Part shown: positions 1 through 25,250 of the stretch, one piece after another
Numbering within the stretch: the stretch's first letter is position 1
Layout: the number at the start of each line of letters is the position of its first letter
From: Cinnamomum chago
Lineage: Eukaryota; Streptophyta; Magnoliopsida; Laurales; Lauraceae
DNA: 64,000 bases
Direction: 5' to 3'
NCBI GenBank assembly: GCA_038049695.1
Contig: CP142451.1
Coordinates: 47,627,001 to 47,691,000, forward strand
Translations under genes and position numbers: made by a program
Notes under the pieces: model-generated
Told to the model about the DNA's origin: nothing
Database searches by the model: none
What the model saw: only the letters and a program-made list of their open reading frames with translations

Positions 1-599
1 CACCTAATTCGGAGCTTGCGGATCATCTCAAAATGACTCCAATAGGCTCCTCGTCGAATTTCAGGTCAATCGGACATCGTTTGACCGAAAGTCAAAGCTC
101 GGCATTTCCCTTGCGGTGAAATCAAAGGCAAGCGTTTGCATGACTCCAAATGGCTTCAAAACTCAAACAAAAGCCTATGGTTGGTCTTAACTACTGATGA
201 GGGAGTCACACGTCGAATTTCAGGTCAATCGGACATCGTTTGACCGAAAGTCAAAGTTCGGCATTTCCCTCGCAGTGAAATCAAAGGCAAGCATTTGCAT
301 GACCCCAAACGGCTTCAAAACTCAAAAGAAAGCCCATGGTTGGTCTTATTTAATGCTCAAGAAGCTTCACCTCAAATTTCAGGTCATTCCGACATCGTTT
401 GACCCTGTTTCAGCTTCTGGTGGAAAATCAGCAGTTCTGCGCTCGGCTTTTCCCGGAAAATCGGAAACATTGCAAACCAATTTGAAAGGATTCTCATCAT
501 GTTTTTCAAAGGGAAATCAAGCCAAAAATGTGGAGAAATGTCATAGAAAACAAACAAAAAAAAAACGGAAGCGAAAAACGACGAAAAACGGCCAGAAAC

Positions 600-790
600 G
601 GGCCCCGGGAAGCAATTTTCCCCCCAGGGTCGCAGAGCCCCGCGACCCTGGGCCATGGTCGCCGGCGACCCTGGCCCATGGTCGCCGGAGAACATGGGGC
701 CGGCGACCCTGGGAGGTCCGGGGCGCCGATTTCACCCCGGGACCCCCCGTTTCGTCCGTTTTCGCCCCGGGACCCCCCGTTTTCGTCAGT
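600..790. repeat. GC-rich palindromic block in U3
   Basis: This block repeats short units around CCATGGTCGCC and its reverse complement. At 650-677 it forms a 28-bp inverted repeat with one asymmetric base pair; the matching site in the 3' LTR (21601-21628) is perfect. It is the most variable part of the LTR between the two copies. It is non-coding, and the open frames crossing it are not conserved. Confidence 0.7.
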
Positions 791-1412
791 TGTTCTGTCC
801 CTGTGATTTTTCCAGATTCAGACTTTTGAGGCTCCAAATTCGCCGATATTCGCCAAGATCACAGGAATCCTTCCAAGAACTTCAAAAACTTCGTTGATCG
901 CCAGCTGAACAACCAAAAAGTGCACTTTCTGCCCGCCCGATCGCGAAATCGACTGGACAGATGCTGCCGGCCCGCTGGTATCAACCAATGTCTGAAACTA
1001 CATGATCATCTGATGTTGATTTACATAAGGATCCATCGATGATCATCGCAAAGGGAATTCCAAGAGACGCAACATGGCCCGCGACTCTTCAGCTACCAAG
1101 GTGGCCACTTAGTGCAATCAATTGGCCCGTTTATGGCAAGTTAATGCGGTCATTAACCCATTATCTTGAACGGCCCAATCAGAAGCCTTCGTTCAGGAGT
1201 TACAAGTCCAAGCAATCATGGCATTCAAGCCATGAAACTCCTAACATAATGGAGATTAAAGGCGATTAAATGCCCATGACTCTCCTCCGGCCAATGAAAT
1301 CCAAGGGTCAGGAGTTACAAAACAAAAAAGCAATTAAACTTGTAACTCCTCCCTTAATGAGCTTTATTACCATAAAGGCTCATAAATCACTCCTAAAGGC
1401 TACCAAAAGGCC

Positions 1413-1420
1413 TATAAATA
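1413..1420 (+). promoter_or_regulatory. Sense TATA box in the 5' LTR
   Basis: TATAAATA lies in the context GGCCTATAAATAGGAG, a near-ideal plant TATA box, with the transcription start expected about 30 bp downstream near 1445. That gives U3 of roughly 2.65 kb and R-U5 of about 0.8 kb. The same box is at 22347-22354 in the 3' LTR, and an equivalent TATAAAA is in the inverted relative near 24775. It is predicted to drive the genomic and gag-pol transcript. Confidence 0.75.
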
Positions 1421-1915
1421 GGAGTCCTCTCCAAGCATTCCAGGGGATCAGAAAAAGAGGGGGACACACACAGAAAGAGCCAGAAAATCATTCAAAAATC
1501 CTTGGAGAAATCTCTACAACCCTGCTCCTTCAAGAAAACTCTGCTGCAACAAGTTCAACAAGGTGATTGAAGCCCCTTGGGGGGCCACCCCCCCTCAAAG
1601 ACCACCTATCCTTCTATCCAACATGGCTAGATGCGGCTTTTCAGCCCGTCTACTCAGCCTTTTACCGGATATAGGACCTTATCTTGGTCCTTATCCTCTA
1701 AAAATCTGAGGTTGGAGCCAAGCCAAGAAATCAAGCACTATGTTCTCATCTGAAGGACGATGGCGGAGCCCATACATGACTCGCGACCATCGATCTGAAC
1801 GAGCCCTCCCACAATCGCATGAGAAGTTAGATTCCTTTTTCTTACTTTTCTGTTGTAAATTGTATTTTTTTAAAGAGACAAAAAACCACAACTCTTGTCT
1901 TTCATTATTGATGAG

Positions 1916-1990
1916 GATTGTAAATCGGCTATAAACGCCACAAATCGGCTATAAACGCCAAAAATCGGCTATAAATGCCAAAAAATCGCC
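1916..1990 (+). repeat. GGCTATAAACGCC short tandem repeats in U5
   Basis: Three copies of an 18- to 20-bp unit (AATCGGCTATAAACGCCA) are followed by a degenerate fourth. Each has a GGC...GCC inverted core. The same motif recurs in the minisatellites after pol (13955-14575 and 57715-58110) and as GCCGTGAAAGGC units in the inverted LTR at 24150-24285, so it is a family-wide feature. Confidence 0.75.
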
Positions 1991-2247
1991 TTTTACGGCA
2001 AAATCAAAAAACTGTCTCTTTTATTAAAATATGTATGCAATGGAAAACTAGAAAAAAGTTTCATTTCCCTTTTTACTTGTGAAGGTGGATCTCCGGATCA
2101 CCATTTCTAAATTCCAAGTATAAAAGAGAAATTGGCATACCCGTACAAAAAAACTGATGCCCGCTTTTCCTTTTTCCCTCCACCATACCCCGTCAGCCCC
2201 GGGGCGGAGGCAGCTTTGGAAAAAGACAAAAGCCGGGACCATCAAGC

Positions 2248-3640: not shown

Positions 3641-4042
3641 AAAAATCCCATCTCGTGTCCTTTCCAAGGATGCGATTTGCAACATTTGTGCCTAGCGGTG
3701 CTAGTACGCCCTTTCGGGTCTACTGTATTCGCAACCGACACATTTGTATCTCAACCTTATATCATTTTACCTTGAGTGAGCTTTGCTTCTCGGTAATTTG
3801 AATTAAGGTTCACAATTGCTTCTAGCAGTCACTGGGACGCTCATTCTGAGCTGACCCTACCTGCGTTCAGAACAATTGTGCCTTCTATGGCTTTTCTGCC
3901 TTCCTCATATTGCTTGGGCTGGGCCATGTCCCCTCGGGCGACTTGAAAAGGCGAAACCATAGTATTTTCCATTTATGATCACCATATTCTTGTGATTACT
4001 AATGGATATGGTCTTGTTTCAGAAGTTTTCCAAAAACTAACA

Positions 4043-7000
4043 ATGGCAGCTTCATTAACCATCACCTTTGATGAGAACAAGTACCAGCTCATGCTCCAAG
4101 ACAAACAAACCAAGCGCACTTACAAGCGCCCTGCCAGCTGCCGAAGCGTCATTTCCCTCGGCAACTCAGAAGACACCGGGTCAAACTCTACTCCCCGGAC
4201 CATTGTCTTCGGGTCATTGGGACCATTCCCACTACCCGCAGAAGAAACCGCACCTGCCAAGAAGCAGAGAACCGCCCCTCAACGTATCACTACAGTGATA
4301 CCAAGGGCGATCATCAAGAAACCTGAGGCCCGTAGTGCTCCTGCAAAGCCTCAACCAGCAAGAAACCAGGTCTGCTCAAAGACTTGGTCTCCAAGGCCTT
4401 CACCCAAACAGCGAAGGTCACAAACATCAGCAAAGCCAGCATACCTGGCCCCTCTCAAGGAGAACCGGTTCTACCCTCTTGCTTACATGAAAGAGGAGAA
4501 GCCTACCCTCCGCCAAACAAAACCAACTCAGCACGAGCCGGCTTGCTCATACAAGCCCAAAATCAAATCGTGCATCGTAAGGCCTCCGCAAGAACCTGTC
4601 AAGGCCTTCACACCTGCGAGTCGACCCTTCCTCTCAACGGGAGCCGAACTCGCAAAATTCAAAGCTTCGCTGCGACAGGCAAAGGACCGCGTCCAGATCC
4701 TGTCCCTGCCCATCTTCAAAGAAGACAAGCTTGGCTGCTGCGCACCAGGGACTACTTCCTTCATTGCTAGGGCACAGTCAGAGCTAACCAAAGCTCAAAT
4801 CGCTCGTCGTATGCGTCGCCGAACGGCATATCGACAAAAGAGACTAGAGAAGCAAAGAACCCAGGATTCTGCACTTCAAGTCTCCCAAAAATGGGTCGAA
4901 AAAGAAAGACCCGACCAACTTGTTGCTGTTCATATGGTTGGCAAAACCAGGAAACGCCAGAAGTCAGCAACTAAAATCCATGTCAGACGACCGGTGACTC
5001 GCAGCGTCTCCCGGACACGAAAACATAAAGAAAACTCTCCCGCTCCTTCAAGCCAAGGACATCAGAGTGACCACTCTTCGAGCTCTTCATCTAAAAGAAT
5101 GAGCTCCAGCTCAGTCACCAAGACTGTATCCTCTTTCGACTCTCGAAGAATGAACGTCTTGGTAACAAATGCTGAGCAACCTCCGCCGCATGATGACGTA
5201 ACCGCACGCATCCAGCAGCTGGAGCAAGGGCAGCAGAGGATAGAGACTCTAATAGAGAACCTAATTCTCAATCTTCAGCGTCCACAAAACAATGAAGCTC
5301 CTCCGAGCCATCAAGGCGACGAGGAAAATGCGGAAAACAGTGAGTCACGCGCCCTTACCAAAAAGGACGTTGACGATATCCTCGCCAAAGCAAAAGAAGA
5401 GGATACACTAAAGGAGCATGGGATCAAGCCACCATATCCCTTGTGGATGGACTCGGTCCCGTTCCCTACAAAATTCAAGCAACCTACTCTCCAAACATAT
5501 ACGGGGAAAGGTTCAGCCAGACAACACGTCATCCATTTCAAAATCCTGACGGGAGCTATTGCGGATCAAGATGCCCTCAAAATCCGCCTCTTTGCAAGGA
5601 CCCTAAAAGGTACGGCCTTTGATTGGTACTCCACTCTGCCTGAGGACTCCATTCAAAATTGGGCCATGTTGGAGACACGCTTCCTAACCCACTTCAAAGG
5701 TGAGGATCATCCTGTTACTATGGCTCAGCTCTGCAGCATAAAACAGGGAGAGAATGAGTCAACATATGACTTTATTCACAAGTGGAAGGCAATGGCATAC
5801 AAATGCTCCGATGTACTGCCACAAGCATCACTGGTCGACATCTGCCGAAACAACATGAGAGCAAGAATCCGCTCCATGATCATCGGCAACAAATCAAAGA
5901 ACCTGGGAGAACTCCTGGAAGCATCTATGGAAGCTGAAACGGTGATCAAAGACCTCAACAGTCAGAAGTCATCAAAGAAAGAGCCGACTGCCATTGCAAC
6001 CTCAAAACCAAAGAAAAAGGAGGTTCTCAATGTGCAAACCAAGTCAGCTCCTCAGCAGCCAAAGAAAGCTGAAAACAAAGCTGCAGGTAAAAAGCCTGAA
6101 CTCTCTGATGCCTTCAAAGAACGAGTAGAAAAGAAATACCCGTTCGATGAAGATGTTGAAGAAATCTTTGGGGCACTCCTAGCAAACGGCAAACTTACAT
6201 TGCCTGACCCCAAAAGACCAGGAGATGTTGGCAAAACCAACGATCCTCGGTACTGCCCATACCATCAGATGGTCTCGCATCCTCTCAATCAATGTTTTGT
6301 TGTGAGAGAGAAGATAAATGAGATGTGGAAAAACGGAGTCATTACCTTCGACAAGAACTATGGGTCTGCCTCCGTCAACATGGTGTCGTGTGGACAAAAA
6401 CAAAAATCACCAAAAGAGAAGATCACTACTTCCTTCAAGGTGATAAAGATGACCCAAACGTCCCGAGAGTTGGTTCCATATCCAACATCAGACGGACAGC
6501 CCATATGGGTACACCCCGATATCCTAGAAGATGAAAATTGGGAGGTCGTCAAAACAAAGCCAACCGCTCAACAGCGAAGGCAAGCCAGGAGACAACTCCG
6601 CAAGCTCAAACAGCAGGAGAAAGCTCCGAAAAAGCAAGAAGTCGCTGAAAAGGCAGAAACCTCCTCTACCGCTTCACTGGGGGCAACAGAAGAGTCCTCT
6701 CCTAAGGCTTCAAAGGCGGCAAGGAAATTCACTCTTGGTGATTTCATGCCACCACATCTCAAAGATGAAACTACGCAGGGGGCATCATACTCTTGCAACT
6801 CAGTGGTCGGATTCTCCATGGATGGATATGAGTCCAGTGACACCGCCAGTGACATCGATGAGTGGGAAGAATCCCTCGAAACAGGAGAATATCTCTCCGA
6901 CGAGGAATGGATCCCTGAATCTCATCTTATGCCAGTAATCTGGTATAACCCATTACAGCCGCAAGGATCCTGGTCTGATGATGAAGAAGACCAAGAGGCT

Positions 7001-10000
7001 GTCCAAGAAAATACTCCAGTGGAACCCAACCATGTTGAACCACAAGGAGCAAACGAAGAAGAAGATTTGGCTCCCGTGCCTGATCTCGATGAATACGCAA
7101 GGATCTTGCAGCACCTTGCTATAGAGCAAGAACAAGGTCGCATCAATCAGCTTTGTCACAACCCAGCAATGGAAGTTCCTGAAAATCTACAGGAATCTCC
7201 TCCGGTAACCCCGGAAAACGAAGAAAGCTGTTGGATCGACGATCCTCTTACATCTGAGGACGAATCTGATTCCCAACAGTTCATCTTGGAGGCATCTTCC
7301 GTCAAAGTTACTTGCAATGCAATAACTCAGGATGATAATTCCTCACCTTCTCAGGCTTCGTCTCCTGGAACAGTGACATCGGAACTCAAACCTCTTCCGA
7401 CCGATCACCTTGAAGAAATTCCAGCCGGTGAAATCTTCTTCGGAGAAAATCCGGTCAATTGGTCCCAAATGCCCGATCTCATCGGTGATGTCTGGACCAA
7501 CAAAATATTCGACAAAGAAGGAAAGTTGCTGGATGCTGTTCAGGACTTGCTCCCGGAAAATGCTCCATGCAACACAATTACTGAAGATGGCAATGCTGAC
7601 ACAGAGAAATCTTCAGCAAATGAGAAGGAACAACCCCTCGATCTCGAGGGTGATCTTCTAAACAAAGACCCTTCTCCAGAAGCTCTTGAAGTTGGTAGAG
7701 GTACCCGTTCTGGCCGGGATTACCATAAAAACTACAACCAACCTTCTGCTTCTTATGTAAACCCTTCAGGAAAACAAGTTGTAAACGCCCCTAGTGGCAA
7801 GAATAATGAAAATGCAGGCCCCAAGGAGGCTTTCAAGTACGACTTGATTCAGCACTTCAAACACATACCTGCACGTCTGCACATCCTAGACTTGTTACGA
7901 ATGTCACCACAGACTCGTGATAGTCTCATTTCAGAACTACAAATGCTGGATGCGGATGTCGACAAACATGCCCCACAAGTCCTACAAATTGAAATGGACT
8001 ATAGGGTCGAAAAATCAAAAACTCCCTCAAAAGGAGAAAAGAAGAAAACTGAGGGATCCTGCATCGAATGCCTCTCGGTTAAAAAAGCAACAAGTGCAAC
8101 CATCGCCTTCACCAAGGAAGACCTCCTACTAGGCGAGACAAAGCACAACCGGCCCCTGTACTTCACCGGGTACATCAAAGAGGTGCCAGTACGCAAAATC
8201 CAGATCGATCCAGGTTCTGCACTCAACCTCATCTCCACTTCGGCACTCGAAGAACTGGGCATTCCGCCTAGCAAGCTGAGCCACACGTCTGTGTCCATCT
8301 TTGGATATGATGGCAGCGCTCAAAGGCCGATCGGCAAAATCAGGTTCAAGTTGCAAATCGGTGATCTTATCTCCGAGGTCACTGTCTATGCGATAAAGAC
8401 CCCTTCATGCTACAACATCCTTCTCGGACGCCCCTGGATACACGAGAATGGTGTTGTCCCTTCGACTTTACATCAGTGCATCAAGTTCGTTGGCAATGAC
8501 GGCTTGATACATCGAGTGTTTGCAGACAAAAAGCCCTTCAAAGGGAAAGAAGTCTATTTCGCAGATGCTCAGATGTACAAAGATGAAAAAGAAGAAAGGG
8601 AGGAAGAAACAGCATCCTTTGCCGAAAATCTCCAGAAAGACAAAGGCAAGGCTCCTCAGCAATCACCGGAAGAAAATAAACCCTCTATCAAAACCGAAGA
8701 GAATAATCAATCTCCCTTCATGGTCTCCCTCAAGTCTTCAAAGCCTCTGGTGATCACCACCAAAGCAAAGAAGACAAAACAGAGGGTTGGGGGCAAGTTT
8801 GCTGTCTCCTTCGTGTCTATCTTGCAAGACACGGATTCGGACTCAGAGCCAGAAGACGATACATCGTCAAGCCAAGCTGATGATCAACAAGTTCAGCCCG
8901 CTCTCACTCCGATGGAGACAACCGTTGACATAGAAGATCCGGCATCTGCTTCCTTCGTTGTTCCAGCAACATCAGCAGAAGAAAAGACAATCTTCTTCCA
9001 TAAATCGGGAGTTTCTTCATCAAATTCTTCGCTTGAACCTTTCAAAAATGAAGGTATGCCTCAACTATCCCTGTATAGTCCAATGGCGCAAGCTATCATG
9101 AAGAAAATGGGCTACGACGCTCAGAACCCAACCGGTTTGGGAGATGGCCGTGGTATTATCACGCCATTGGAACCAACCCTGACCAAAAGTCAACTGGAAG
9201 GTTGGAAACCCCACCGCCACATAGAAAAGTCTTCATATGGGCTGGGGTATGATCCTGACGCCCCCTTGAGACAGTTGACACAAAGGCTGCAAAATCATCT
9301 TGCCAACCAAGCCTCAACATCTCATATTAATGAAGACATCGATCTCCCTGGATATCTCTTTGAAGAGTTGGTCGTCAAGGATCCAGGAAGTTCATCCAAT
9401 TGGTACGATTTCTTTGATGATGAAGAGGAATTGTCCGATGATACAGACACACGGTTCTCTGACCCAGAAGAACCACTGTCTCCAAAGGAAGTGCCCTACT
9501 TCGACCTAGTTTCAACAGGTGATTGGGACCATCTCATAGCAAATCTTGAGAAAAGTACCAATCAAGAAGACCCATGGACAAAAGCAGAGCCGTGGTCTGT
9601 AGATACCTTTGGAACTCCAGAAGGCTTTGTTGGGTTGGAAGCCTCCGAAAATATTGTGGAGGAACCACCTTCAAATCTTCCAACAGAAGATTCTGTTCAA
9701 AAGATAGACTTGGGAAAACCTGATAACTCACGTCCTGTATTCATAAGCAAGAATATAAAGGATGATGAGTTACCCGAGTATATCGCGTTTCTTCATGAGT
9801 TCGTTGATTGTTTTGCATGGTCTTACGCTGAGATGCCTGGCTTAGACCCCAAAATAGCAATCCATAAACTCAATCTTCAAAAAGATATCAAGCCTGTCAA
9901 ACAAGGCCAAAGAAGGTTCCGTCCTGACGTGATGGACAAAATTGAACAAGAAGTTCAAAAACTCAAAAGCATTGGCTTCATCCGTGAGGAACAACATCCT

Positions 10001-13000
10001 GAATGGTTGGCCAACATCGTCCCCGTGACAAAGAAAAATGGGCAAATCAGGGTCTGCATTGATTACAGAGACCTGAACAATGCATGCCCAAAAGATGAAT
10101 TCCCGCTCCCTATACCGGAGGTGATGATCGACAATACCTGTGGGTTCGAGCGAATGACATTCATGGATGGCTTCTCTGGCTACAATCAGATAAAGATGCA
10201 TCTTGAAGATGGAAAACACACAGCATTTCGGACCCCGTTTGGCGTGTATTGCTACACTGTCATGCCATTCGGTCTGAAGAATGCCGGCGCTACATATCAG
10301 AGGGCTATGATGAAGATATTCCAAGATATGCAGCACAAGACGGTCGAATGTTATGTCGATGATCTCGCCGTCAAAAGCAAAAGAAAAGAAGACCATCTCA
10401 AAGATTTTCGGGAAGTCTTCCTCCGACTTCGCAAACACAAACTGCGAATGAATCCCCTCAAATGCTTCTTCGGTGTTTCATCGGGTAAGTTTCTTGGGTT
10501 CATAGTACGGAAAGCTGGCATAGAGCTTGACCCCACCAAAGTCAAGGCTATCCTAGAAATGCCATCTCCAAGAACCCTAAGACAATTAAAAGGGCTCCAA
10601 GGAAGATTGGCATACATTCGGCGGTTCATCTCCAACCTATCAGGGAAGTGCCGTCCATTCTCTCGGTTAATGAAGAAAGGTGTCGATTTTGTCTGGGATG
10701 CTGAATGTGAAGCCGCGTTCCAGGGCATCAAGTCATACCTGACTAAACCTCCAGTGTTGGCTGCCCCCACAACTGGAAAACCATTCCTCTTGTACACAAG
10801 AGCCCTTGACTGTTCTTTAGGCGCTCTACTCGCACAAAAGAATGACCAGGGAAAAGAAGCTGCTCTATATTACCTTAGTCGCATGTTGGTAGGTGCAGAG
10901 CATCGCTACTCTCCAGTCGAAAAAGAATGCTTGGCAGTGATGTTCGCCGTACAAAAACTGCGTCACTATCTGCTATCCAACACAGTGTACCTGATTTCGA
11001 GGATCAACCTCCTAAAGGTCCTTGTCACAAAAGCAGGTTCTCTCAATGCCCGACTGGCAAAATGGTCCATCCTCCTGTCACAATTTGATATTAGGTATGT
11101 ACCACAAAAAGCAATCAAAGGCCAAGCTCTAGCAGACTTCCTCGCGGAGCATCCATTGCCTAAAGATTCTCCACTCAGGGATGACCTCCCAGACGAATCA
11201 GTCTACAGTGTGGAGACTTCCTTATCGAACGCTTCCTGGCACATGTAGTTCGATGGCGCAACCAGGACAAATGAAAAGGGAAATCAAATATCGGGAATTG
11301 GCATTCTCTTTGTTAATCCCGACAAATACATGATTCCACACGCATTCTCGCTACTGGAACCATGTTCAAACAATGCAGCTGAGTACCAAGCCCTAATCAT
11401 AGGATTGGAACTCGCCCTTGAATCCGGCATCACTACGCTGGAAGCTTTTGGAGACTCTCAACTGATCGTCAACCAGATGAATCAGAAATTTGAAGTCAGG
11501 AAGCCCGATCTGTTGCCTTACTACAACAAAGCACAATCGCTTCGACAAAAGTTCGACATCTGTCATATCACCCACATCCTCAGAGGTGGAAACATTCGTG
11601 CAGATGCCCTGGCTGGACTTGCTGCGTCTATGGCAATCCAAGAAGGGGAAAACATGCAAATTACAGTGTGTCAAAAAAGGATTCTCCCTCCTCTCAACAC
11701 ACATCAAGCAGTTGTTGAATGCCACCAAGTGGTTGGAAGTCGGATTTCCGTCCTTAAACCTCTGATCGGCGACTGGAGGGATCCGTTCATTGATTACATA
11801 ATGTTCGGAATCCTACCTGAAGATCCAAAAGAACGGGTAAGCATCCAAAGACGAGCCCCAAACTTTCATTTGGATATTCCTGCAAAAATGCTGTATAGAA
11901 AATCCTACAATGGAGTACTTCTACGCTGCTTGTCACAACAAGAGGCTGAGGGAACACTCAAAGAAGTACATGCTGGTCTTTGTGGAGCCCATCAGGCTGG
12001 GCCTAAGCTCTACGATCAGATAAAAAGGTTAGGTTATTATTGGCCTACCATGGTGGCTGATGCAATGCAATTTGCTAAGCGCTGCCAACAATGCCAAGTT
12101 CATGGAGATTATGTCCACATGCCTCCGGAATGGCTACATCCTACAGCAATCTCATGGCCTTTTGAAGCCTGGGGTATGGACATCATAGGTCCTATCTCCC
12201 CTCCATCGAGCAAAGGTCATCGCTTCATCTTCGCCGCTACGGATTATTTCTCCAAGTGGTCAGAAGCATTCGCGTTTAGTGAAATGAAGACGTCATCAGT
12301 CCTTCACTTCTTGCGCACCAACATCATTTGTCGCTTCGGCATACCTAAAAGATTCGTCCATGATAACGGACCACAGTTCCGCGATCACCGATTCTACAGG
12401 TTCTGCGACAAATACAAAATCCAAAGTTGTCCTTCAACTCCGTACAATCCGGCAGCGAATGGACTAGCAGAGGCCTTCAACAAGACGCTCTGCAAAATCC
12501 TCAAGAAAATGGTCTCTAGTCACAAAAGAGAATGGGGCGACAAACTGCCTGAAGCTTTGTGGGCCTATCGAACCACCGTTCGAGGACCAACCCATAGCAC
12601 ACCATTCTCCTTGGTCTATGGATGCGAAGCTGTTGTCCCTTTGGATGTTCAAATTCCTTCCTTAAGGGTATCTCTACAAAATGACATGACGCAAGAAAGC
12701 AATGTCAAATTGAGACTCCAAGAGCTGGATAACCTCGATGAGAGACGGCTCGAAGCTCTACAAAGCATTGAACTCTACCAAGCACGCATGGCAGGATCTT
12801 TTGACAAGAAGGTCAGGCAACGCGCCTACAAAAAGGGAGACTTGGTTCTTACAGTAAAAAGACCAATGGTTTTTGCCAACAAATCCAAAGGCAAATTTGA
12901 ACCAAAATGGGAGGGACCTTTCGTCATCGACAAAGTCTTCTCCAACGGCGCATACGCTCTTCTAAACATGGAGGGTGACAGATGTATGCTGCCCATCAAT

Positions 13001-13030
13001 GGGAAGTTCTTGAAGCGGTATTACCCTTGA
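4043..13030 (+). pseudogene. Tat-A gag-pol polyprotein, one in-frame TAG
   Basis: A single frame of about 2995 residues carries all retrotransposon functions. I chose the ATG at 4043 (context ACAATGGC) because the frame upstream of it lacks ATG. In order: a basic, Ser-rich N-terminus with a short coiled coil; gag core (residues ~460-635); a Cys/His knuckle CPYHx6HPLNQC (~737-752); a long acidic linker; aspartic protease with DPGS (~1389); a G-patch-like motif (~1680-1705); reverse transcriptase with YVDD (2104-2107); a degenerate first RNase H; a second RNase H with D-E-D-D residues; an HHCC/DDE integrase (~2640-2820); and a GPF-type C-terminus. There is no chromodomain. The two RNase H domains place it in the Tat clade. 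TAG at 11246-11248 directly precedes FDGA of the second RNase H; the related copy at about 55136 has a Tyr codon there, so this is most likely a nonsense mutation in an otherwise intact frame. Confidence 0.93.
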
Positions 13031-13409: not shown

Positions 13410-13940
13410 ACCGCAGGGAAGCGACGTTCAGTCGATACTTGCAAAACCCAAAATCGGAAGGATGCGAACCCCATTCGATACTTCCAAAATCCCAAAATTT
13501 CAAAAATCGTGGAGACGCAACGTTCCAGTTGATATCCACGACCCAAATTTTAAAACAAACAAAAAAAAAAAACAAAACAAAGGTTCGAAAAAACCTCAAA
13601 CTTCAAAAATCGTGGGGAAGCGACATTCCATCGATACCCACAAAATAAAATTTTTGAAGACAAAAGCAGGGAAGCGACGCTTAGTCGATACTTGCACCCA
13701 AATCCGCGAGGAGGCGACATTCCATCGATACTCGCAACCGAATGAGGAAGGAGGCGACATTCCATCGATACTTGCAATACCATTCAGCAGGGAAGCGACG
13801 CTTAGTCGATACTTGCACCCAAATCCGCGAGGAGGCGACATTCCATCGATACTCGCAACCGAATGAGCAAGGAGGCGACATTCCATCGATACTTGCAATA
13901 CCATTCAGCGGGGAGGCGACTTTTTAGTCGATACTTGCAT
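13410..13940 (+). repeat. GCGAC...TCGATAC minisatellite with 121-bp duplication
   Basis: Units of roughly 30-45 bp built on GAAGCGAC(A/G)TTC..TCGATACTTGCA repeat about a dozen times. Inside the block a 121-bp higher-order unit occurs twice in tandem (13666-13786 and 13787-13907), with the start of a third. Tat-B carries the homologous block at 57265-57710 with fewer units. It lies between the convergent ends of gag-pol and the antisense gene. Confidence 0.85.
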
Positions 13941-13954
13941 TTTTGAAAACCAAA

Positions 13955-14575
13955 AACCTGGCTTTCACGCCAAAAAACCCGGCTTCCATGCCAAAAATCC
14001 GGCTTTCATGCCAAAAAATCAAAAATCCGGCTTTCATGCCAAAAAATCAAAAATCCGGCTTTCATGCCAAAAATCAAAATTCGGCTTCCATGCCAACAAA
14101 ACAAAATTCGGTTTTCAAAAAATCCGGCTTTCATGCCACCCCAAAAATTGGCTTTCATGCCACCTCAAAATCGGCTTTCATGCCACCCCAAAAATTGGCT
14201 TTCATGCCACCTCAAAATCGGCTTTCATGCCACCCCAAAAAATTGGCTTTCATGCCACCTCAAAATCGGCTTTCATGCCACCTCAAAATTCGGCTTTCAT
14301 GCCATCTCAAAAAAATTGGCTCTCATGCCATCCCAAAATTTGGCTTTCACGCCACCAAAATCGGCTTTCATGCCACCTCAAAAAAAATTGGCTCTCATGC
14401 CATCCCAAAATTTGGCTTTCACGCCACCAAAATCGGCTTCCACGCCACCTCAAAATTTCGGCTTCCATGCCATCCAAAATTTTGGCTCTCATGCCATAAA
14501 CCCAAATCAGGCTATAGATGCCACCCAAAAATTGGCTTTCATGCCGCAAGCAAAAACTGGCTCCCATGCCAAAAC
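13955..14575 (+). repeat. GGCTTTCATGCC minisatellite, about 25 units
   Basis: About 25 units of 20-25 bp share the core GGC(T/C)(T/C)(T/C)CA(T/C)GCC followed by A/C-rich spacers such as ACCTCAAAAT. The outer GGC and GCC can pair in every unit. Open frames in several phases result from the periodicity and are not genes. Tat-B has a shorter version at 57715-58110 with GGCTATAAATGCC variants, linking it to the U5 repeats of the LTR. Confidence 0.88.
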
Positions 14576-14579
14576 AATC

Positions 14580-14826
14580 ATTTGTCAAAAGATTTCTCAC
14601 AAAATGACAAACTTTTGATCACATCCCATTTAGCAATCACTTTAATCACAATATTTGAGTGAGCGTAGGGAAAACAAAAAAAAAAAAAAAAAAAAAAAAC
14701 AAAAAAAAAGTACCAAAAATACATGTGGTACCAAAAAAAAAAGAAAAGAAAAGTGTTCACAAGCACTACAAAAATGTATACCAAAAAAAAATACATGTGG
14801 TATATAAAAAGAGAGAAAGAGGGGTC
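14580..14826. other. A-rich tail between minisatellite and antisense gene
   Basis: This A-rich sequence has two copies of TACATGTGGTA (about 14720 and 14792) and long A-runs. Read on the minus strand it directly follows the antisense stop codon, so it probably forms that gene's 3' UTR. I found no convincing polyadenylation signal by eye. Confidence 0.55.
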
Positions 14827-15767
14827 TCAGCCAAAAATGCCCTCCAGCCAAGCTTTCAGTTCCTCAAGCAAACTCTTGGCTTCATCCGTTAGAGTCTCCA
14901 AGGCACGCTTCTTCAAGAAACTGCCATGAGTAGCTGGAGAAGGCTCTATCCCTTCTGCTACACCAGGAAGACTATCCCGTGCAGTCTGCCATCGTTCATT
15001 CTCTTTAGCCTTCCTATTGAGAATCTGACTAGACTCTGCAACTTGGCGAATCAAAGCACTCTCCCTGTCACGAGCCTCTGTTATGGCAGTCCACATACTG
15101 GCGACTTGGGCTTTTAAGTGTTCGAGATGCTTCCTTGCCTCCTCAACTTCCCCATCAAGGATGCTAAGGTCATGCTGCAGCCTGATGATGTCTAACTCTG
15201 CTCGGTTCCTCTCCCGAACCAGCTGTTTCCTGCCCTGTGCAGTCTCTTTCAATTCCGATTGAGCCTTCTCAGCCGGGATCAGGAACATCTCTTGGAAGAA
15301 CTGGTCATCAGGATAGCTGATGGTCTCAAACCATCCGTCGCCTAATGCAATGATCTTATCAACGATCGCCCGGGCGCCCGTAACATCCAGACCAATATCT
15401 TCCTCAGCATCTTTGAGAATCTCTTTCACATGCGGAATCTTGCTACGTGCAACATCCAAGTGTCCAGAAAGGAGGGTCTCAATCCAAGAACTCAAAACCC
15501 GCATCACCACCTTCTTCGCATACTGAAGAGATGGGCCAGATGAAGACTCACCCTTCTCTGTCGATTGGCTGCCCAAGTCATGTCCCATCGGAAGAGTAAC
15601 AATAGAACACTTTCCAATCGGGGCCGCTGGAGAAGGAATCTCAACATGAGGTCTAGCCTCTGCCGCGTCAGAATTGGCTGGAGAAGTCCCAATTACTGGG
15701 TCAACTTCTGGCATCCCTGGCTCTGGCTCTGAAGGAAGCGATGGACTCTCTTCTGTCACTTCAAAAT
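14827..15767 (-). CDS. Exon 5 of antisense gene: C-terminal coiled coil
   Basis: This last exon follows acceptor TTTGGCAG and encodes about 313 residues ending in LEELKAWLEGIFG and TGA (14829-14827). After a Pro/Ser/Glu-rich lead, the stretch from KKVVMRVLSSWIETLLSG onward is mostly helical, with heptad-like Leu, Ile and Val spacing through QLVRERNRAELDIIRLQHDL and VEEARKHLEHLKAQV. It looks like a dimerisation coiled coil. The Tat-B version (59300-58381) has diverged a lot in sequence but keeps the same helical layout and length. Confidence 0.82.
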
Positions 15768-18700
15768 CTGCCAAACACAAAAAGGTATGAATATGATCTT
15801 GTCAAAAAAAAAAATCAATGTCAAGATTATCACTATGAAATACCTTCTTCCATGATGGGCGGATTACTTTCTATCTCCATTTGCTCATCCGAAGCATCGT
15901 CGAAAGCCATATCCATAGATGGCTCGAAGTCGGAACCCTCTGGCAAGTCAGCTAACAAGAAAACAAAAATATGTGTCAGCAAATTCAAAAAAAAAAAAAA
16001 AAAAAAAAAATCATCATCCTCATACCAGGTGGAGATTCTGAGTCCTCCCCAGAGTCCCTCAACTTTTCTTCAGATGCCGCAACTGGATCCATCACCGCCT
16101 CATCGGCAGGAACCTCGGGCATCACTAAGTTTTCATCTTCTGCAAAAGAAAGAAAACAACAGATCAAAAAAAAAATCCCTCATAAAAGGAAAGAAGCGAA
16201 AATAGAGAAGAAGGAAAATCATACCAACATCAGCGGACTCTTCTTCACGACTCCTCTTCTCTGGAGGTTCATCAGCATCTCCTGATACCTCCTCAGCAAT
16301 GGTAGGAGGGACTTCCAGATCAGGAAAGTCTTCGTGGCGTCTCTCTGTGCGACGCTGTCCTCTCCTCCTCTTTTTTCTACGAGCCGGTCTACTCGAAGTA
16401 CCTGCCTCACTGTCAAAGTCAGGACTTCCACTTGGCTCCTCACTGGACGACCCGCTCCTACCAGTGGACCCCATGGAAGCCTTCATTCGCTCTGCTTGCA
16501 TCCAAGTGTCGATCTCGGCTTCCTCCTCCTCGAGCTGTCTCAAGACCTCAGCAGGTATCTCTTGTGCGGCTCCGGATCTAATGACATCCTGTTCCTCGAG
16601 AAAGCCTATCCTATGCTTCTCTCCAGAAAGGAAGAACAAAACTTCCCCTCGACGGACGCCATCTGATCTACCAAGACCCTTCCCAGGAGATTGCTTGACA
16701 TTCAGCTCCTTCTTGGAAAGCCCTCGGTACACAGCAAAGCTCTCCACGAACCACTTCATGAAGCCAGCAGTTCGGAAAATGGGCAACTCAGGATAGGAAA
16801 TCATGGCAGTAGTGTCCTCCGCACTATAGAAAGCCCATACATTTCTCCCGTCCTGCAAACCTCCAAAACGCTTCACCATGCTCGAAGGCGCTCCAACAAC
16901 GCCTTGAGAGAAGCCTAACTGCAACGCAAAACGCGAAGGGACATACGGCTGGATATCAACAAAAAGATGTCTGCGGTACACCATCGTGCCAACACGTATG
17001 TTTAAAAGCCACCTCTTCTCTGCGTTGGTCAAAGAATAGTGTCTTCCCGATCCCGCCCTGGTAGAATCTCGGGAGACACCAAAATCAAAAGCCTTCTTCC
17101 GCAAATCTGGAGAAAGCTTTACTGAAGATTGCCCAATCTCGACATCCCTGAATCGTCGGATTCTCAAGCGGGCAGACAAAAGTGAATCGGAAACGGCTTT
17201 TCCCCTAGCTAACCGAATCATAAAAGGGTCATCATCCTGAGCAGCGCCCAAACGGTGGAAGCCGGGACAGTGGTACACATACCACGAATAAAAAATATGG
17301 GCTGAAAATACCCTATTCATAGGAAGCCCAAGCCGAACCAGAAAAGCAGCAGCCTGCAGTTCGGTGCACAAATAGGAGTAAAGAGCAGGCACCAAAGCCA
17401 ACTGCTCTCCGAACGCCATCTGACAAGCCGGAAATATACAATGCGGCCTGATGTGTGTTCCGTCTCCTCCAGCAAAAACAGCCTCACCCAGCCAATAAGT
17501 GAGGTACGCAGCAACGTCTCTCCGCAGCGCAATGTCGGAGCAAACGGCGTCTGTACTTGTGAGAAAGTTCTTCAAATTCTCTCGCATGGCAGAAATCTTC
17601 TTCCCCGGATTCTTAGTCTTGGCTTCCTGGGTCATACTCTCAGAAGATTCTTCGTCGCCAAAAAAGTTTGGAGACAAAGAGCTGAAACTCCTCCAACTGC
17701 TACACCGGACTTTCAAGCCATCCTTCTCCCTCAAAAAATCGTAGAAGGCGACGAGCTGAAAGTACAAAAGCCTGAACTCCTCAGACTGCTCCTCAAGGAC
17801 GCTGTCAATCGGCATAAATTCCTCATAGAGTTTGCCGAGGATGGGTAACCCGGTAATGGCACTCAGCTCCTTCAAAGAAAAATCAATCTCACCATTCGTA
17901 ACAATGAAGGTGTTGGTTTGTGGAAGGAAGGACTCCAGCATGGCCATAAAAGCCTCATCGGAGAAAAATACGGTTTGCCTAAAAGCGCGAACCGCATCAA
18001 AAATCTCGGCCTCCTTCAGAATGGCACCGCCGATCTGCAGGATGTGATCAGTCCACGACTCCCAGCCCGAGTCAACACTGAAACGGCCACGAAGTCGAAA
18101 AGGCTTCACCCAATTGCTGCCATCGCCCCTGAAAATGCCAAGGCCCACCGGTCTCAAATCAACCGATGGATGATCAGATCCTTGGTAGCCGCTGGCCGGC
18201 ATCAACATGTCCAGACGGACAGGCGACTTCTCTGCATAACCAGAAGGACCGCCAACAAAAACCCCGGTCTTGACCACAGTGGTCCTCTTCACCCAGCTTG
18301 GAGGATCTTCTCTCTTAGAGCAAGTGGGAGAAAGACTCATGATCGAAATAGTACGATCAAAAGGCGACCGGGTAGAAATGGTTCTCTCCTCACCATCGGC
18401 TGTGTAAGAGAACTGAAAGCATCTCCTTTGATATGACGAGTCATCAGGAGCTGCATCACCAAAGAAAAAGGTAGGCTTGGGCACAACGCTCTGATCGTCC
18501 ATGACCCAAGGATGATTGCTTGCCATAATCTTATAAAACTCCTCATCCTTGAGACCGATCAGTCGCTGTCTCATCTCATCTCGGTTGAGCGAGTCACACT
18601 CTTCCAAGTTTCTCTCCACATACTGGACCTTCTCCCAAGCCTGCTGTATAGCAGCATTGGAAGATCTGGCAGATCGACGAGGTGTATCGGTAAAGGGCTT

Positions 18701-19752
18701 CTTACCCTTGTTCGTTCTGGAGGAACTACCTGCAAAGATTGAAAAAAAAAATCAATCAACAGAATGACAGAATTTTGCTAAAAAAAAAATCCTAGCGAAA
18801 TTTTGGCATGACTCCGGGGCAATTCCGAAGAAAAGGGAATCACCCCGAAAAGAAAGGAAGCCTGAAGATGAGCTCAACATCGCTGCGAGCTCATGATCAA
18901 TGAAGGATTCTCAAAGAAGACTCGAACTCAAACATTGCTGCGAGATCAAGACAGTCTTCTCAAATTTCCGCAAGAATCGGAAAAGAGCTCAACATTGCTG
19001 CGAGCTTCAAATCCCAAAACTTGCAAAAAAAAAAAAAAAAAAAAAAAGCTCCTCGAAACCCCCGCAAGACTAAAGAAAGAGCTCAACATTGCTGCGAGCT
19101 TCAAATCTCAAGACTTGCAAAAGATTTCCAGGTGTGCATCATCATCATGCTCCCAATTCAATTTACCAAAAATCATGCATAAAAGAAAATCATCATGCAC
19201 TAGATGCTAGGAAAACCTTGACAAAATTTGACCAATTCCAACCCAACTTGGTCAAAATCAAACTTTGTCTAAGTCAAAATTCATGTTGACTTAACATAGA
19301 AACTCTAGCCTTCTATCTTGATGCATCAAACAAAAAAAAAATGCATAAACATCTTGAAATGCATGAAACCTCATTATCCTGATGATACAAAAAGGGGAGA
19401 AAGGAAAGTTTTTTTTTTAAAAGAAAAAAAAAAAAAAAAGAAAAGAAAAAAAATTATGGGCTGGCCCACAGGCCGAAGCCCACAGGCCGTGGCCCATGGG
19501 CCACATGGCCGTACGGCCCAAAGCTGTACGGACATGTCCGTACAGCAGCAAAAAAAAAAAGGAGAAAAGAAAAAAAAAAAGAAAAAGAAAAAAAAAAAAA
19601 AGAAAAAGAAAAGAAAAGGGCGTGTAAAAAAAAAAGAAAAAAAGAACACGTGCAAAAAAAAAAAAAAAAAAAAAAAGAGAAGAAAAAAATGATGAAACTT
19701 TCTTTACATGGAATTTTTTGTAAAAAGAAATAAAAAACTTACTTGAAGCCAT
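14827..19752 (-). CDS. Antisense plant mobile domain gene, five exons, intact
   Basis: This five-exon gene runs against the retrotransposon between integrase and the 3' LTR. Exons on the minus strand are 19752-19743, 18729-16225, 16139-16026, 15951-15844 and 15767-14827. All four introns are GT-AG and phase 1 (1013, 85, 74 and 76 nt). The joined frame is open for 1225 codons from ATG to TGA. The N-terminal 840 residues carry a plant mobile domain of the kind found in MAIN-like proteins and in several transposons; the C-terminus is acidic and then coiled coil. Cellular relatives act in gene silencing and development, but this protein's role is unknown. The start codon and first donor lie in the 3' LTR, and intron 1 spans the LTR boundary. 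A decayed homologue occupies the same place in Tat-B (58381-64000), so the gene belongs to the element family. Splicing is predicted, not demonstrated. Confidence 0.85.
15844..16139 (-). CDS. Exons 3 and 4 of antisense gene: acidic linker
   Basis: Exon 3 is 16139-16026 (114 nt) after acceptor TTCTTTTGCAG; exon 4 is 15951-15844 (108 nt) after acceptor TTCTTGTTAG. Donors are CCTG|GTATGA and GAAG|GTATTT. Both are phase 1 on each side and multiples of three, so either could be skipped without changing the frame. They encode acidic linker rich in Glu, Asp, Ser and Pro. Tat-B keeps both, but its exon 3 donor reads CT instead of GT at 59572-59571. Confidence 0.8.
16225..18729 (-). CDS. Exon 2 of antisense gene: plant mobile domain
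   Basis: This 2505-nt exon opens after acceptor TTTGCAG and closes at donor TTG|GTATGA. Its first codons add a Ser run to exon 1, then a short basic segment. Recognisable mobile-domain blocks are WESWTDHIL, FSLKELSAITGLPILGKLYE, YLTYWLGEAVFAGGDGTHIR, FPACQMAFGEQLALVPALYS and VYHCPGFHRLG. The 3' part becomes charged and holds RRKKRRRGQRR, a plausible nuclear localisation signal, before Glu/Asp-rich sequence. The assignment rests on resemblance to the family known as plant mobile domain (PF10536). Confidence 0.85.
18871..19102 (+). repeat. Four inverted copies of the leader repeat core
   Basis: GCTCAACATTGCTGCGAG or close variants occur at 18872, 18927, 18986 and 19081, each followed by related sequence such as CTTCAAATC. 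The core is the reverse complement of the leader core TCGCAGAAATGTTGA, with 14 of 15 bases matching in the best pair. The array sits in intron 1 of the antisense gene, so it is in the same orientation relative to that gene as the leader repeats are to gag-pol. Confidence 0.75.
19491..19546. repeat. Three successive perfect palindromes
   Basis: Within 56 bp lie the palindromes GGCCCATGGGCC (19491-19502), GGCCGTACGGCC (19508-19519) and a 24-bp one at 19523-19546 whose arms are GCTGTACGGACA and its complement. They sit between long A-rich tracts just before the polypurine tract, in intron 1 of the antisense gene. Single- or double-stranded folding is likely; function is unknown. Confidence 0.8.
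19654..19689 (+). other. Polypurine tract of Tat-A
   Basis: An uninterrupted purine run ending in AGAGAAGAAAAAAA directly abuts TGATGAAAC, taken as the first bases of the 3' LTR. Its position matches the plus-strand primer of LTR elements. An alternative purine run at 19389-19408 is not followed by TG. Confidence 0.75.
19743..19752 (-). CDS. Exon 1 of antisense gene, inside the LTR
   Basis: ATGGCTTCAA is followed by a consensus donor GTAAGT (19742-19737). Joined to exon 2 at 18729 it starts the protein MASSSSSRTNKGKK in the frame of the large exon. In exon 2 no early ATG is available (the codon that is ATG in Tat-B near 63988 is ACG here), so this tiny exon supplies a plausible start. Confidence 0.72.
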
Positions 19753-19872: not shown

Positions 19873-19879
19873 TTTTATA
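19873..19879 (-). promoter_or_regulatory. Antisense TATA box in the 3' LTR
   Basis: On the minus strand CTATAAAAGC lies about 125 bp upstream of the antisense ATG at 19752, predicting a transcription start near 19845 and a 5' UTR of roughly 90 nt. It is in U3 and points into the element from the 3' LTR. The same site in the 5' LTR, before the window, would point outward into flanking host DNA. Confidence 0.65.
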
Positions 19880-21600
19880 GAAGAGAGCAAACCAAAAGAG
19901 GAAACAAGAGAAAAGCAAGGAGATAAGTGCTAAAAATTAGCAACCTTCCCAAAAGAAAAGGAAACTTGGATCCTTTGAGAAATTCTCTCCCAAAGAAAGA
20001 TATTTTGAGAGAATATCTCCCAAAATCAAGAAAACTTGAGAAAATCTCTCAAAGTAAAGATATTTTTAGATATTCTCCACCCAAAAGAGATATCTTTAGA
20101 TATTCTTTACGAAAATGACACCATATGAGATCTAAGCCATTCCCAAAAGCTTAAGGTCCCATGGGTTAGCCCATATGAGCCAGGTTTGACCACCTAGGCA
20201 CTAAAAGTGGCTTTTAGTCAAAATTCCTCTTACCAAGAGCATACAAAAAAAATGGTTCCATGCCTCTCTTTTGAGTTGATTGGACCATACAAAAATTCCA
20301 AGCCTCATGAGCTTCCAAGATCCAAAACCATCTCACCTCATGAGCCAAATTGAGCCAAACCTTGAAATTGACATTTCACCAAAAATCAAACCGGTCCCCT
20401 AACATTCCACATACAGCTTGTTAGGTCACAAGACCAAAATCAAAAACCAAAACCTGACCCCCCAACATTCCACATACAGTTTGTTGGGTCACACGGTCAA
20501 AACCAAAATCCGACCCCCTAACTTGCCACATACAGCCTGTTAGGACTCAAGGTCAAAACAAAAATCCAAATCCGCATCCCCGATGTCATCTTCAATACTT
20601 TGCCTCAAAATGGTGCATGATTCTTATCACTACCATAAAATCCCCTGGAAGCTCAAAAGGCTACTCCATCAAAGAAAAAAAAAATGCTCAAAGACTCTTG
20701 GTCAAGACAGAAGCTCTTCTTCAAGATTCTCTTCTTCAAGACACCAAAAAATAGGCAGGGGCCACTTCAAGCATCAGATCTTGTCAGAATCAAACAAAAA
20801 CTGCAAGGTCATTCAAAACAACCAAAAGAGAGGTACACATGAAGTTTCGGGCCATTCCGACATCATTTGGCCTAACTTCACTTCTCCAACAGCTAAGCAA
20901 CAGCTCCCGGCGGCGGACCACCCCGGGACCATGGCACCTAATTCGGAGCTTGCGGATCATCTCAAAATGACTCCAATAGGCTCCTCGTCGAATTTCAGGT
21001 CAATCGGACATCGTTTGACCGAAAGTCAAAGCTCGGCATTTCCCTTGCGGTGAAATCAAAGGCAAGCGTTTGCATGACTCCAAATGGCTTCAAAACTCAA
21101 ACGAAAGCCTATGGTTGGTCTTAACTACTGATGAGGGAGTCACACGTCGAATTTCAGGTCAATCGGACATCGTTTGACCGAAAGTCAAAGTTCGGCATTT
21201 CCCTCGCAGTGAAATCAAAGGCAAGCATTTGCATGACCCCAAACGGCTTCAAAACTCAAAAGAAAGCCCATGGTTGGTCTTATTTAATGCTCAAGAAGCT
21301 TCACCTCAAATTTCAGGTCATTCCGACATCGTTTGACCCTGTTTCAGCTTCTGGCGGAAAATCAGCAGTTCTGCGCTCGGCTTTTCCCGGAAAATCGGAA
21401 ACTTTGCAAACCAATTTGCAAGGATTCTCATCATGTTTTTCAGAGGTAAATCAATCCAAAAATGTGGAGAAATGTCATAGAAAACAAACAAAAAAAATGG
21501 AAGCGAAAAACGACGAAAAACGGCCAGAAACGGGCCCCGGGAAGCAATTTTCCCCCCAGGGTCGCAGAGCCCTGCGACCCTGGGCCAGGCCTGCGACCCT

Positions 21601-21628
21601 GGGCCATGGTCGCCGGCGACCATGGCCC
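21601..21628. repeat. 28-bp perfect palindrome in U3
   Basis: The arms are GGGCCATGGTCGCC and its exact complement with no spacer. The equivalent in the 5' LTR (650-677) has one changed base. Reversed, more degenerate relatives are at about 30664-30715 in the inverted LTR, so the motif is family-wide. Confidence 0.85.
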
Positions 21629-23179
21629 ATGGTCGCCGTAGACCATGGGGCCGGCGACCCTGGGAGGTCCGGGGCGCCGATTTCGCCCCGGGACCCCCCG
21701 TTTCGTCCGTTTTCGCGAGACGAGTTGTTCTATCCCTGTGATTTTTCCAGATTCAGACTTTTGAGGCTCCAAATTCGCCGATATTCGCCAAGATCACAGG
21801 AATCCTTCCAAGAACTTCAAAAACTTCGTTGATCGCCAGCTGAACAACCAAAAAGTGCACTTTCTGCCCGCCCGATCGCGAAATCGACTGGACAGATGCT
21901 GCCGGCCCGCTGGTATCAACCAATGTCTGAAACTACATGATCATCTGATGTTGATTTACATAAGGATCCATCGATGATCATCGCAAAGGGAATTCCAAGA
22001 GACGCAACATGGCCCGCGACTCTTCAGCTACCAAGGTGGCCACTTAGTGCAATCAATTGGCCCGTTTATGGCAAGTTAATGCGGTCATTAACCCATTATC
22101 TTGAACGGCCCAATCAGAAGCCTCCGTTCAGGAGTTACAAGTCCAAGCAATCATGGCATTCAAGCCATGAAACTCCTAACATAATGGAGATTAAAGGCGA
22201 TTAAATGCCCATGACTCTCCTCCGGCCAATGAAATCCAAGGGTCAGGAGTTACAAAACAAAAAGCAATTAAACTTGTAACTCCTCCCTTAATGAGCTTTA
22301 TTACCATAAAGGCTCATAAATCACTCCTAAAGGCTACCAAAAGGCCTATAAATAGGAGTCCTCTCCAAGCATTCCAGGGGATCAGAAAAAGAGGGGGACA
22401 CACACAGAAAGAGCCAGAAAATCATTCAAAAATCCTTGGAGAAATCTCTACAACCCTGCTCCTTCAAGAAAACTCTGCTGCAACAAGTTCAACAAGGTGA
22501 TTGAAGCCCCTTGGGGGGCCACCCCCCCTCAAAGACCACCTATCCTTCTATCCAACATGGCTAGATGCGGCTTTTCAGCCCGTCTACTCAGCCTTTTACC
22601 GGATATAGGACCTTATCTTGGTCCTTATCCTTTAAAAATCTGAGGTTGGAGCCAAGCCAAGAAATCAAGCACTATGTTCTCATCTGAAGGACGATGGCGG
22701 AGCCCATACATGACTCGCGACCATCGATCTGAACAAGCCCTCCCACAATCGCATGAGAAGTTAGATTCCTTTTTCTTACTTTTCTGTTGTAAATTGTATT
22801 TTTTTTAAAGAGAGAAAAAACCACAACTCTTGTCTTTCATTATTGATGAGAATTGTAAATCGGCTATAAACGCCACAAATCGGCTATAAACGCCAAAAAT
22901 CGGCTATAAATGCCAAAAAATCGCCTTTTACGGCAAAATAAAAAAACTGTCTCTTTTATTAAAATATGTATGCAATGGAAAACTAGAAAAAAGTTTCATT
23001 TCCCTTTTTACTTGTGAAGGTGGATCTCCGGATCACCATTTCTAAACTCCAAGTATAAAAGAGAAATTGGCATACCCGTACAAAAAAACTGATGCCCGCT
23101 TTTCCTTTTTCCCTCCACCATACCCCGTCAGCCCCGGGGCGGAGGCAGCTTTGGAAAAAGACAAAAGCCGGGACCATCA

Positions 23180-23916
23180 GAAGGTCTAGATTGAATTCAT
23201 CAAAGAGTGCAAGTGGTGTTCCAATCCAAACATAGGCTCAAACATTTCTGCGAGCGCTAAATCCGAAAAGGTGAGAACCAAGATTTCTCAAATCTGAATT
23301 CAAAATGACGGAGGGTTTTTTTGTTTTTTTTTATGATCAAGACTGAATTCATCAAGGAGAGCAAATTGTGTTCCAATCCGAATAAAAGGCTCAAACATTT
23401 CTACGAGCACTAAATCCGAAAAGGAGAGAACCAAGATTTCTCAAATCTGAACTCAAATGTGACGAAAGTTTTTTTTAAAGGGTTTTTTTTAAAGATTTTT
23501 TTAAGATTCTTTTTTTGAAGTTTTTTTTTAAAAAGTACACATGGTCTCCAATTCGGTCTTATGAAACCTTAGTAGATAGATCAGCACCCAGGTAAGGGTA
23601 AGATTACTTAATGAATCCGTTTGGAGGACCCTTGCTCGAACAGTCTAGCGGCCTCCACACTCTGCGAGCACTAAACCCGAAAAAGGAAGAAACCAAAGTT
23701 TCTCAAATCTGAATCTAAAAAAGAGAATCAGATTTCCTTTTTTTTGTTTTTTGAAATGAGAAAGAATGGAAACAAATTGAAAGGTAGAAATTTCCAAAAA
23801 TCCCATCTCAGGTTGTTTTTGGATGCAAGATCCAACATAGGCCACCAACTAGAAAGGAGCCTAAGAATTCAAGCATTGCGTTCTCAAATGAACGAGTCCC
23901 ACCGGGTGTGCCAACT
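23180..23916 (-). mobile_element. Inverted Tat leader and PBS (element A')
   Basis: Read on the minus strand this is the leader of a Tat element related to Tat-A: the PBS (TGGCACACCCGGTGGGAC) at about 23913-23896, then leader repeats down to 23180 with the core reversed as CTCAAACATTTCTGCGAG. The leader stops abruptly where the Tat-A 3' LTR ends, so Tat-A most likely inserted into it. Confidence 0.82.
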
Positions 23917-24147
23917 TGATGGGGGCTCCGACCTTTCGTCCTCTCCTTCCCACCCCTGGGGCTGCCGGGAGTATGGCGGAGGAGGAAAAGTGAGTCATCA
24001 ACATTTTTGTACGGGTATGCCAGATTTTCTATTCTACTTGGAATTTGAAATGGTGATCCAAAGATTCACCTTCACAAGTAGAAAGGAAATCAATTCTTCT
24101 TTCTAACTCTCCATTGTACTTATATTTTAAGAAAGAGATACAATTTT

Positions 24148-25231: not shown

Positions 25232-25250
25232 CTTGGTTCAAAATCTCAGT

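Follow-up and report, generated by a model that had tools for sequence, protein, structure and literature searches.

What does an intron-bearing gene do on the antisense strand of a retrotransposon, and to whom does it belong? The question is raised by a window of 64,000 bp from Cinnamomum chago (contig CP142451.1 of assembly GCA_038049695.1, positions 47,627,001 to 47,691,000), in which a gene for a plant mobile domain (PMD) protein lies on the minus strand between the integrase and the 3′ long terminal repeat (LTR) of a giant Ty3/gypsy element. This feature is a genuine accessory gene of the element, which is of the Tat clade and of a family here called A. We are nearly certain that this is a real gene and that purifying selection acted on it at the time when the element was moving, because its start codon and splice sites are kept, its introns vary freely, its exons contain few indels, and the ratio of nonsynonymous to synonymous substitutions (dN/dS) is low in a frame-specific manner.

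Removal of four introns (19742-18730, 16224-16140, 16025-15952, and 15843-15768, of 1013, 85, 74, and 76 nt), all GT-AG and in phase 1, from minus-strand positions 19752..14827 gives 1225 amino acids and a stop codon, and the original prediction of an unbroken 1225-codon frame was correct to the base. From the base composition, about 61 stops would be expected in a frame of this length, and the probability of its being open is about 6e-28. Exon 1 (19743..19752) consists of 10 coding nucleotides, including the ATG; exon 2 (16225..18729) contains the N-terminal region, the PMD, and a basic run; exons 3 (16026..16139) and 4 (15844..15951) are acidic; and exon 5 (14827..15767) holds the C-terminal module and the stop codon. 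The GC content of the exons is 49 to 53%, except for the ten-base exon 1 (40%), and that of the introns is 22 to 35%, with 46 to 62% T; low GC and high T are as expected of plant introns.

The encoded protein scored 56.7 bits against the Pfam profile PF10536 (E 3e-15), above the curated cut-off of 34.9 bits that decides membership, with the best stretch at residues 372 to 664 (16748..17626, minus strand), and 61.4 bits when the PMD region was searched alone. The mobile domain had been anticipated from the letters alone, as had a nuclear-type basic motif behind it, and the translation does contain the run RPARRKKRRRGQRRTERR at about residues 785 to 802 (16334..16393, minus strand), which we take to be a putative motif of the nuclear-localisation-like type. 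An acidic stretch follows at residues 800 to 912, with 40 D/E versus 7 K/R, and weak, sub-threshold Pfam matches to HAUS5 and Csm1_N at residues 1086 to 1167 suggest that the C-terminal module of exon 5 is likely a coiled coil. A TATAAAA box is located about 127 nt upstream of the ATG (19873..19879, minus strand), at a distance of about 860 bases from the 3′ LTR and not within it. Of 20 family-A copies with exon 1, 17 contain the box, the exceptions being L019, L028, and L032, and so does L041, the one of five copies of a second family, B, whose exon 1 is recognisable; it would constitute the gene's own promoter.

A search of the genome with exon 5 scored at least 127 places with 94 to 100% identity, from 3152 candidates at first look. 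For family A, the 40 best exon-5 matches other than the window were sampled at every second row, which gave 20 of the 126 rows listed and favours copies with an intact exon 5, and the 20 copies compared are the window and the fetched loci after dropping the rearranged L025. The ATG is kept in 20/20 copies, the donor GT at 80/80 sites, including that of exon 1 in 20/20, and the acceptor AG at 78/80. The coding length is 3678 in 13 of the 20 copies, and the whole frame is open in eight. Distinct gap runs number 104 in 1248 nt of introns, 83 of them in intron 1, versus 10 in 3678 nt of exons, all in exon 2 and thus none in exon 3 or 4. Family B, which has at least 148 genome matches, keeps the exon boundaries of family A, and four of 147 rows were drawn by even steps through the listing, regardless of stops. 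In the five B copies, the donor GT of introns 2, 3, and 4 is found in 5/5, 4/5, and 5/5, and the acceptor AG in 5/5 (shifted to 3 nt upstream), 5/5, and 4/5, respectively. The same three junctions are, as judged by eye, crossed by the avocado gene model P0002. A decayed family-B gene with these boundaries occurs in the window itself (58435..64000, minus strand), in an older element (53294-64000) where the PMD gene is frameshifted and about 1.8 kb of other sequence interrupts it.

Selection was estimated from dN/dS by NG86 and YN00. Comparison of dN/dS across copies had been proposed in the original prediction, and the NG86 values for the window versus the five B copies are 0.26, 0.24, 0.24, 0.23, and 0.24 (0.30 to 0.35 by YN00), not near 1. 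Ten pairs among B copies gave 0.28 to 0.59 and 0.50 to 0.78, and 190 pairs among A copies gave 0.47. The low ratio between families and the higher one within them reflect constraint among active lineages and decay after insertion, and divergence compared with polymorphism yielded Fisher p values of 3e-9 to 1e-7 in four tests sharing one A sample. Within family A, which is a star-like burst, dN/dS is weakly informative: singletons comprise 138 nonsynonymous, nine stop, and 77 synonymous changes, and shared changes 14 nonsynonymous and nine synonymous. When exon 2 was compared with four B copies, the true frame gave 0.17 to 0.19 versus 0.88 to 1.51 in the wrong frames of the same strand and 1.03 to 1.45 on the opposite strand, except for the mirror frame (0.23 to 0.27), which is as expected because the third positions coincide; the strand opposite exon 2 holds only short frames there. 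The pol gene, compared between family A and the window's B copy, is tighter still (0.09 and 0.14), so that the PMD gene is constrained, less so than pol.

Because selection acted on a spliced, antisense copy, its protein mattered to the element. One could suppose instead that the antisense transcript is what matters, by pairing with the genomic RNA or feeding small RNAs, and that the protein is secondary; such a role has been proposed for antisense ORFs (open reading frames) in general, as the available text of PMC7264820 states, and 175 PHAS loci were reported at PMD genes in tea (PMC10673657). Purifying selection at the amino acid level and constraint specific to one frame speak against this idea, which we consider improbable.

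The element that carries the gene is 23,431 bp long; its left end lies 252 bases ahead of the window and its right end at 23179. Its 5′ LTR (1..2244, plus strand, with its start 252 nt before the window, TGTTGACACC) and 3′ LTR (20743..23179, plus strand, whose first approximately 60 nt lack a counterpart in the 5′ LTR, leaving the left edge unsure) are flanked on both sides by GAAGG, the target-site duplication (23180..23184, plus strand, and before the 5′ LTR). The LTRs differ by a Kimura two-parameter distance (K2P) of 0.0104 over 2416 aligned bases (14 transitions and 11 transversions), which indicates a young insertion. On the plus strand, ORFs and Pfam matches place gag, protease, reverse transcriptase (RT), and RNase H at 3947..11248, and a second RNase H (RVT_3) and the integrase at 11249..13030. 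The position of RVT_3, after RT_RNaseH and before rve, assigns the element to the Tat clade, since a second RNase H between the first and the integrase is the order given for the angiosperm Tat lineages Ogre and Retand in the accessible part of PMC6317226. The PMD-bearing extra ORF is a trait shared with the Ogre lineage. The intron that separates the gag-protease and RT-integrase ORFs in most Ogre elements is absent here, where one continuous frame runs from gag to RNase H. TGGCACACCCGGTGGGACTCG is found after the 5′ LTR at 2248; in Ogre elements, the mark is a primer-binding site complementary to tRNA-Arg. A weak G-patch match, below the cut-off (E 0.087), was seen in gag-pol at 9077-9190 (polyprotein residues 1710 to 1747), and G-patch domains have been reported in plant Gypsy elements (PMC9289625).

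The gag-pol frame of this copy ends at an in-frame TAG (11246-11248), which is shared by none of the 16 other copies alignable at this piece of pol; the idea of a programmed stop was dropped on this ground. The contrast drawn earlier between a broken pol and a clean antisense gene carries no weight, because the pol stop is private to the copy and the antisense gene is broken in 12/20 copies. The idea that the antisense gene is better kept than pol within family A was likewise dropped: eight of 20 PMD frames are open versus five pol pieces without a stop or indel among 16, two of the 16 being partial. In three of the 20 fetched loci, besides the rearranged L025, pol is missing next to the PMD gene; in L031, gag is joined directly to the region after the integrase, L037 has an inverted piece, and L036 an adjoining Copia RT. 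Deletion forms without pol may use the PMD protein of other copies. On both flanks of the element lie repeats of an older, oppositely oriented relative. Its inverted remains at 23180-25240, an older related LTR and its leader, are what this element inserted into, and that LTR carries another short repeat, TGCCGTAAAAGGCAATTTTG.

Did the element acquire the gene from its host? In a tree of 35 PMDs, that of the window grouped with five Lauraceae-type relatives (100/100 support) on a branch of 4.64 changes per column, its depth being unsure owing to the long row L004 and the comparison having been made without a labelled PMD-A reference. The 29 PMDs outside this clade include MAIN-like and PP7-long-form sequences and two PMD genes of the same genome, which match avocado and Cinnamomum proteins best. 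They are 21 to 37% identical to the window PMD over 38 to 278 aligned residues, and no close cellular donor gene was found among them. The antisense gene is a member of an old PMD lineage far from cellular PMDs rather than a recently captured host gene, and the term "host-type" given to it earlier is not borne out. Ordinary transduction of such a gene, of no function for the element, would account for its gene-like structure with introns; it is already contradicted by the number of close copies (at least 127), a second family with at least 148 members, relatives in avocado, the distance from cellular PMDs, and the selection described above, and we regard it as highly improbable.

Another possibility is a decoy role, in which the protein would weaken silencing in general by competing with MAIN and MAIL1, which are cellular PMD proteins, or with their partner PP7L. 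The antisense protein and MAIN-like proteins belong to one Pfam family, and MAIN and MAIL1 act with PP7L in silencing of transposable elements, according to the portion of PMC7156037 at hand. The identity to two MAIN-like rows is, however, 26% over 72 to 93 residues, and the separate clade also makes a decoy quite unlikely. Close relatives of the antisense protein were found in avocado, and in the genome of C. chago the matches listed include several dozen near-identical PMD places covering profile positions 5 to 238, about 30 near-full ones, many of them broken by a single TGA and a single TAA, which could be shared stops or lie in an intron, and a cluster of PMD genes on C10 (L001 to L003). 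The protein P0003 (PS029_20785), filed as Yersinia pestis, matches the plant retrotransposon protein described here at 79 to 80% identity along most of its length, probably through plant contamination in that record.

That PMD extra ORFs exist in Gypsy/Tat elements is not new. In the available text, Neumann (2019, PMC6317226) found a PMD in 57% of Ogre elements, and Ikeda (2017, PMC5418596) described clades PMD-A1/A2 (PMD-A) as encoded only by Gypsy elements; the window PMD stands apart from cellular-type rows with the 100/100 support noted above. Like these, the present gene has PF10536 in an extra ORF that a Tat-clade element carries, and it differs from what the accessible text describes in its five conserved exons, TATA box, selection with frame control, and exchanged C-terminal exon. 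PMD-bearing extra ORFs of Ogre/Tat elements were also reportedly treated by Steinbauerova in 2011, whose work we know through citing papers. With the antisense ORFs of Retand and Grande (PMC11963269), the gene shares place and orientation, and for Grande an own promoter and a nuclear protein are reported; about half of the recent Retand elements have, as ours does, tandem arrays in the interval from pol to the 3′ LTR. The domains named for those ORFs, in the part of that article available, are different, being Transposase_28, SMC, or none, and neither "mobile domain" nor PF10536 occurs in that part. Among the literature matches listed, none names a spliced antisense PMD gene or a PMD with both anti-silencing and tandem repeats.

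What, then, might the protein do? The best match among solved structures, a weak one, is VANC21, a DNA-binding anti-silencing factor; no PMD relative turned up in sequence searches of the PDB, nothing usable came from a viral structure library (best E 0.17, prob 0.06), and a structure of the whole of exon 2 predicted from 12 close relatives (pLDDT 28) was not used. According to the available text of PMC5735166, VANC proteins remove DNA methylation and bind short motifs, which are tandemly repeated in non-coding DNA of the transposons that encode them. The two systems are alike, as far as that text goes, in being element-encoded, in a predicted fold that is possibly related, in motif repeats in the own element, and in variable protein regions. 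They differ in that VANC belongs to the Mu-like VANDAL DNA transposons and contains DUF1985, while ours is an LTR retrotransposon with a PMD; of 10 PMD proteins compared with Pfam at E up to 10, none matched DUF1985. Cellular MAIN and MAIL1, in the portions of PMC5418596 and PMC7156037 at hand, are host-acting silencing proteins that share PF10536 and differ by the low identity and separate clade already given.

Repeated motifs are present in the non-coding DNA of the element, as in VANC targets. A tandem array with a GGCTTTCATGCC-type core occupies 13950..14575 (plus strand), and the core GGCT[TC][TC]CA[TC]GCC occurs 24 times in 13031-14826, in none of six other element segments, 14 to 33 times per locus in the 20 fetched loci, and four times in the B array. 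Likeness between units in the window array is 0.83 for the 8 nt after GGCT, 0.53 for the next 8 nt, and 0.66 for the 8 nt before it (means of 19 copies, 0.74, 0.51, and 0.63); the B array, with 0.55, 0.47, and 0.65, has no visible conserved core. Three units of the 21-nt AATCGGCTATAAAYGCCAMAA are found in the 5′ LTR (1923..1983, plus strand), three in the 3′ LTR (22858..22918, plus strand), and six (two mismatched) in the B array, versus 0.00 expected; the unit is missing from A's own array, and A arrays contain one to four copies of its 13-nt core form. A pattern built on GCGACATTCCATCGAT was badly drawn and matched nowhere, and nothing was concluded from it. The motif is real as a repeat, and it may be a binding site; GGC-N6-GCC is more frequent than expected in the PMD gene as well (5 versus 0.9), and the LTR exceeds expectation at several spacings.

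The most likely function, one to which we give somewhat less than even confidence, is that of a DNA-binding regulator of the element, possibly VANC-like. A TATA promoter of the gene's own, situated between exon 1 and the 3′ LTR, would drive its transcription, and the introns would survive retrotransposition because the genomic RNA is the other strand and is not spliced there. The protein would enter the nucleus by means of the basic run, pair with itself through the C-terminal coiled coil, and bind with its PMD the short motifs of the array and of the three units in each LTR; much as VANC does, it would thereby keep the element open to transcription. Between families, the C-terminal exon and the array would change. 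Synonymous divergence between A and B (NG86) is 1.46 to 1.99 in the C-terminal part versus 0.47 to 0.88 elsewhere, and five avocado proteins are nearer B (0.65 to 0.70) than A (0.50 to 0.55) in the C-terminal exon and nearer A in the N-terminal and PMD parts. The pattern is best explained by lineages having swapped the tail.

Alternatively, the product might be a nuclear accessory protein of another kind, which aids the pre-integration complex or directs integration without acting on silencing. The basic run would fit, as would the nuclear location proposed for Grande gene23 and the retroviral-accessory-like role proposed for antisense ORFs (PMC7264820, in its accessible part), and the PMD evolves faster than pol (0.23 to 0.26 versus 0.09 to 0.14), as accessory genes do. 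The best solved match is, however, an anti-silencing factor and not one of integration or transport, although the match is weak, and we judge this role plausible and on balance unlikely. The structural lead from VANC21 keeps alive the idea that the DNA-binding regulator may be a silencing modulator. In its full form, which is tentative and doubtful as a whole, Tat/Ogre elements would carry a VANC-like system, in which the PMD is a DNA-binding fold common with VANC21 and the protein binds GGC-N6/7-GCC in the array and LTRs and lifts the silencing of its own family, with cellular MAIN and MAIL1 as domesticated or opposed relatives. That captured PMDs act in anti-silencing in MULE DNA transposons has already been speculated in print (PMC5418596, available part).

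Other elements occupy the rest of the window: hAT-type transposase pieces with DUF659 and Dimer_Tnp_hAT (26349-28592, minus strand); a third, scrambled piece of the same superfamily, with RT, protease, and gag parts out of order and an inverted LTR piece (31495-36151); and another Ty3/gypsy element with several broken frames, encoding a gag with a zinc knuckle, RT, RNase H, and an integrase zinc-binding domain (41498-46718).

Giant plant retrotransposons commonly carry PMD extra ORFs, a kind of passenger gene that is known yet unexplained, the domain having been called one of unknown function (PMC5418596 and PMC8616336, in their accessible parts). The possible resemblance to a transposon protein that lifts silencing gives such a gene a testable job. 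If the likeness to VANC is true, the largest class of plant transposons would possess sequence-specific anti-silencing, which has so far been described for DNA transposons of the Mu-like type, and one could test where the host silencing proteins MAIN and MAIL1 came from.
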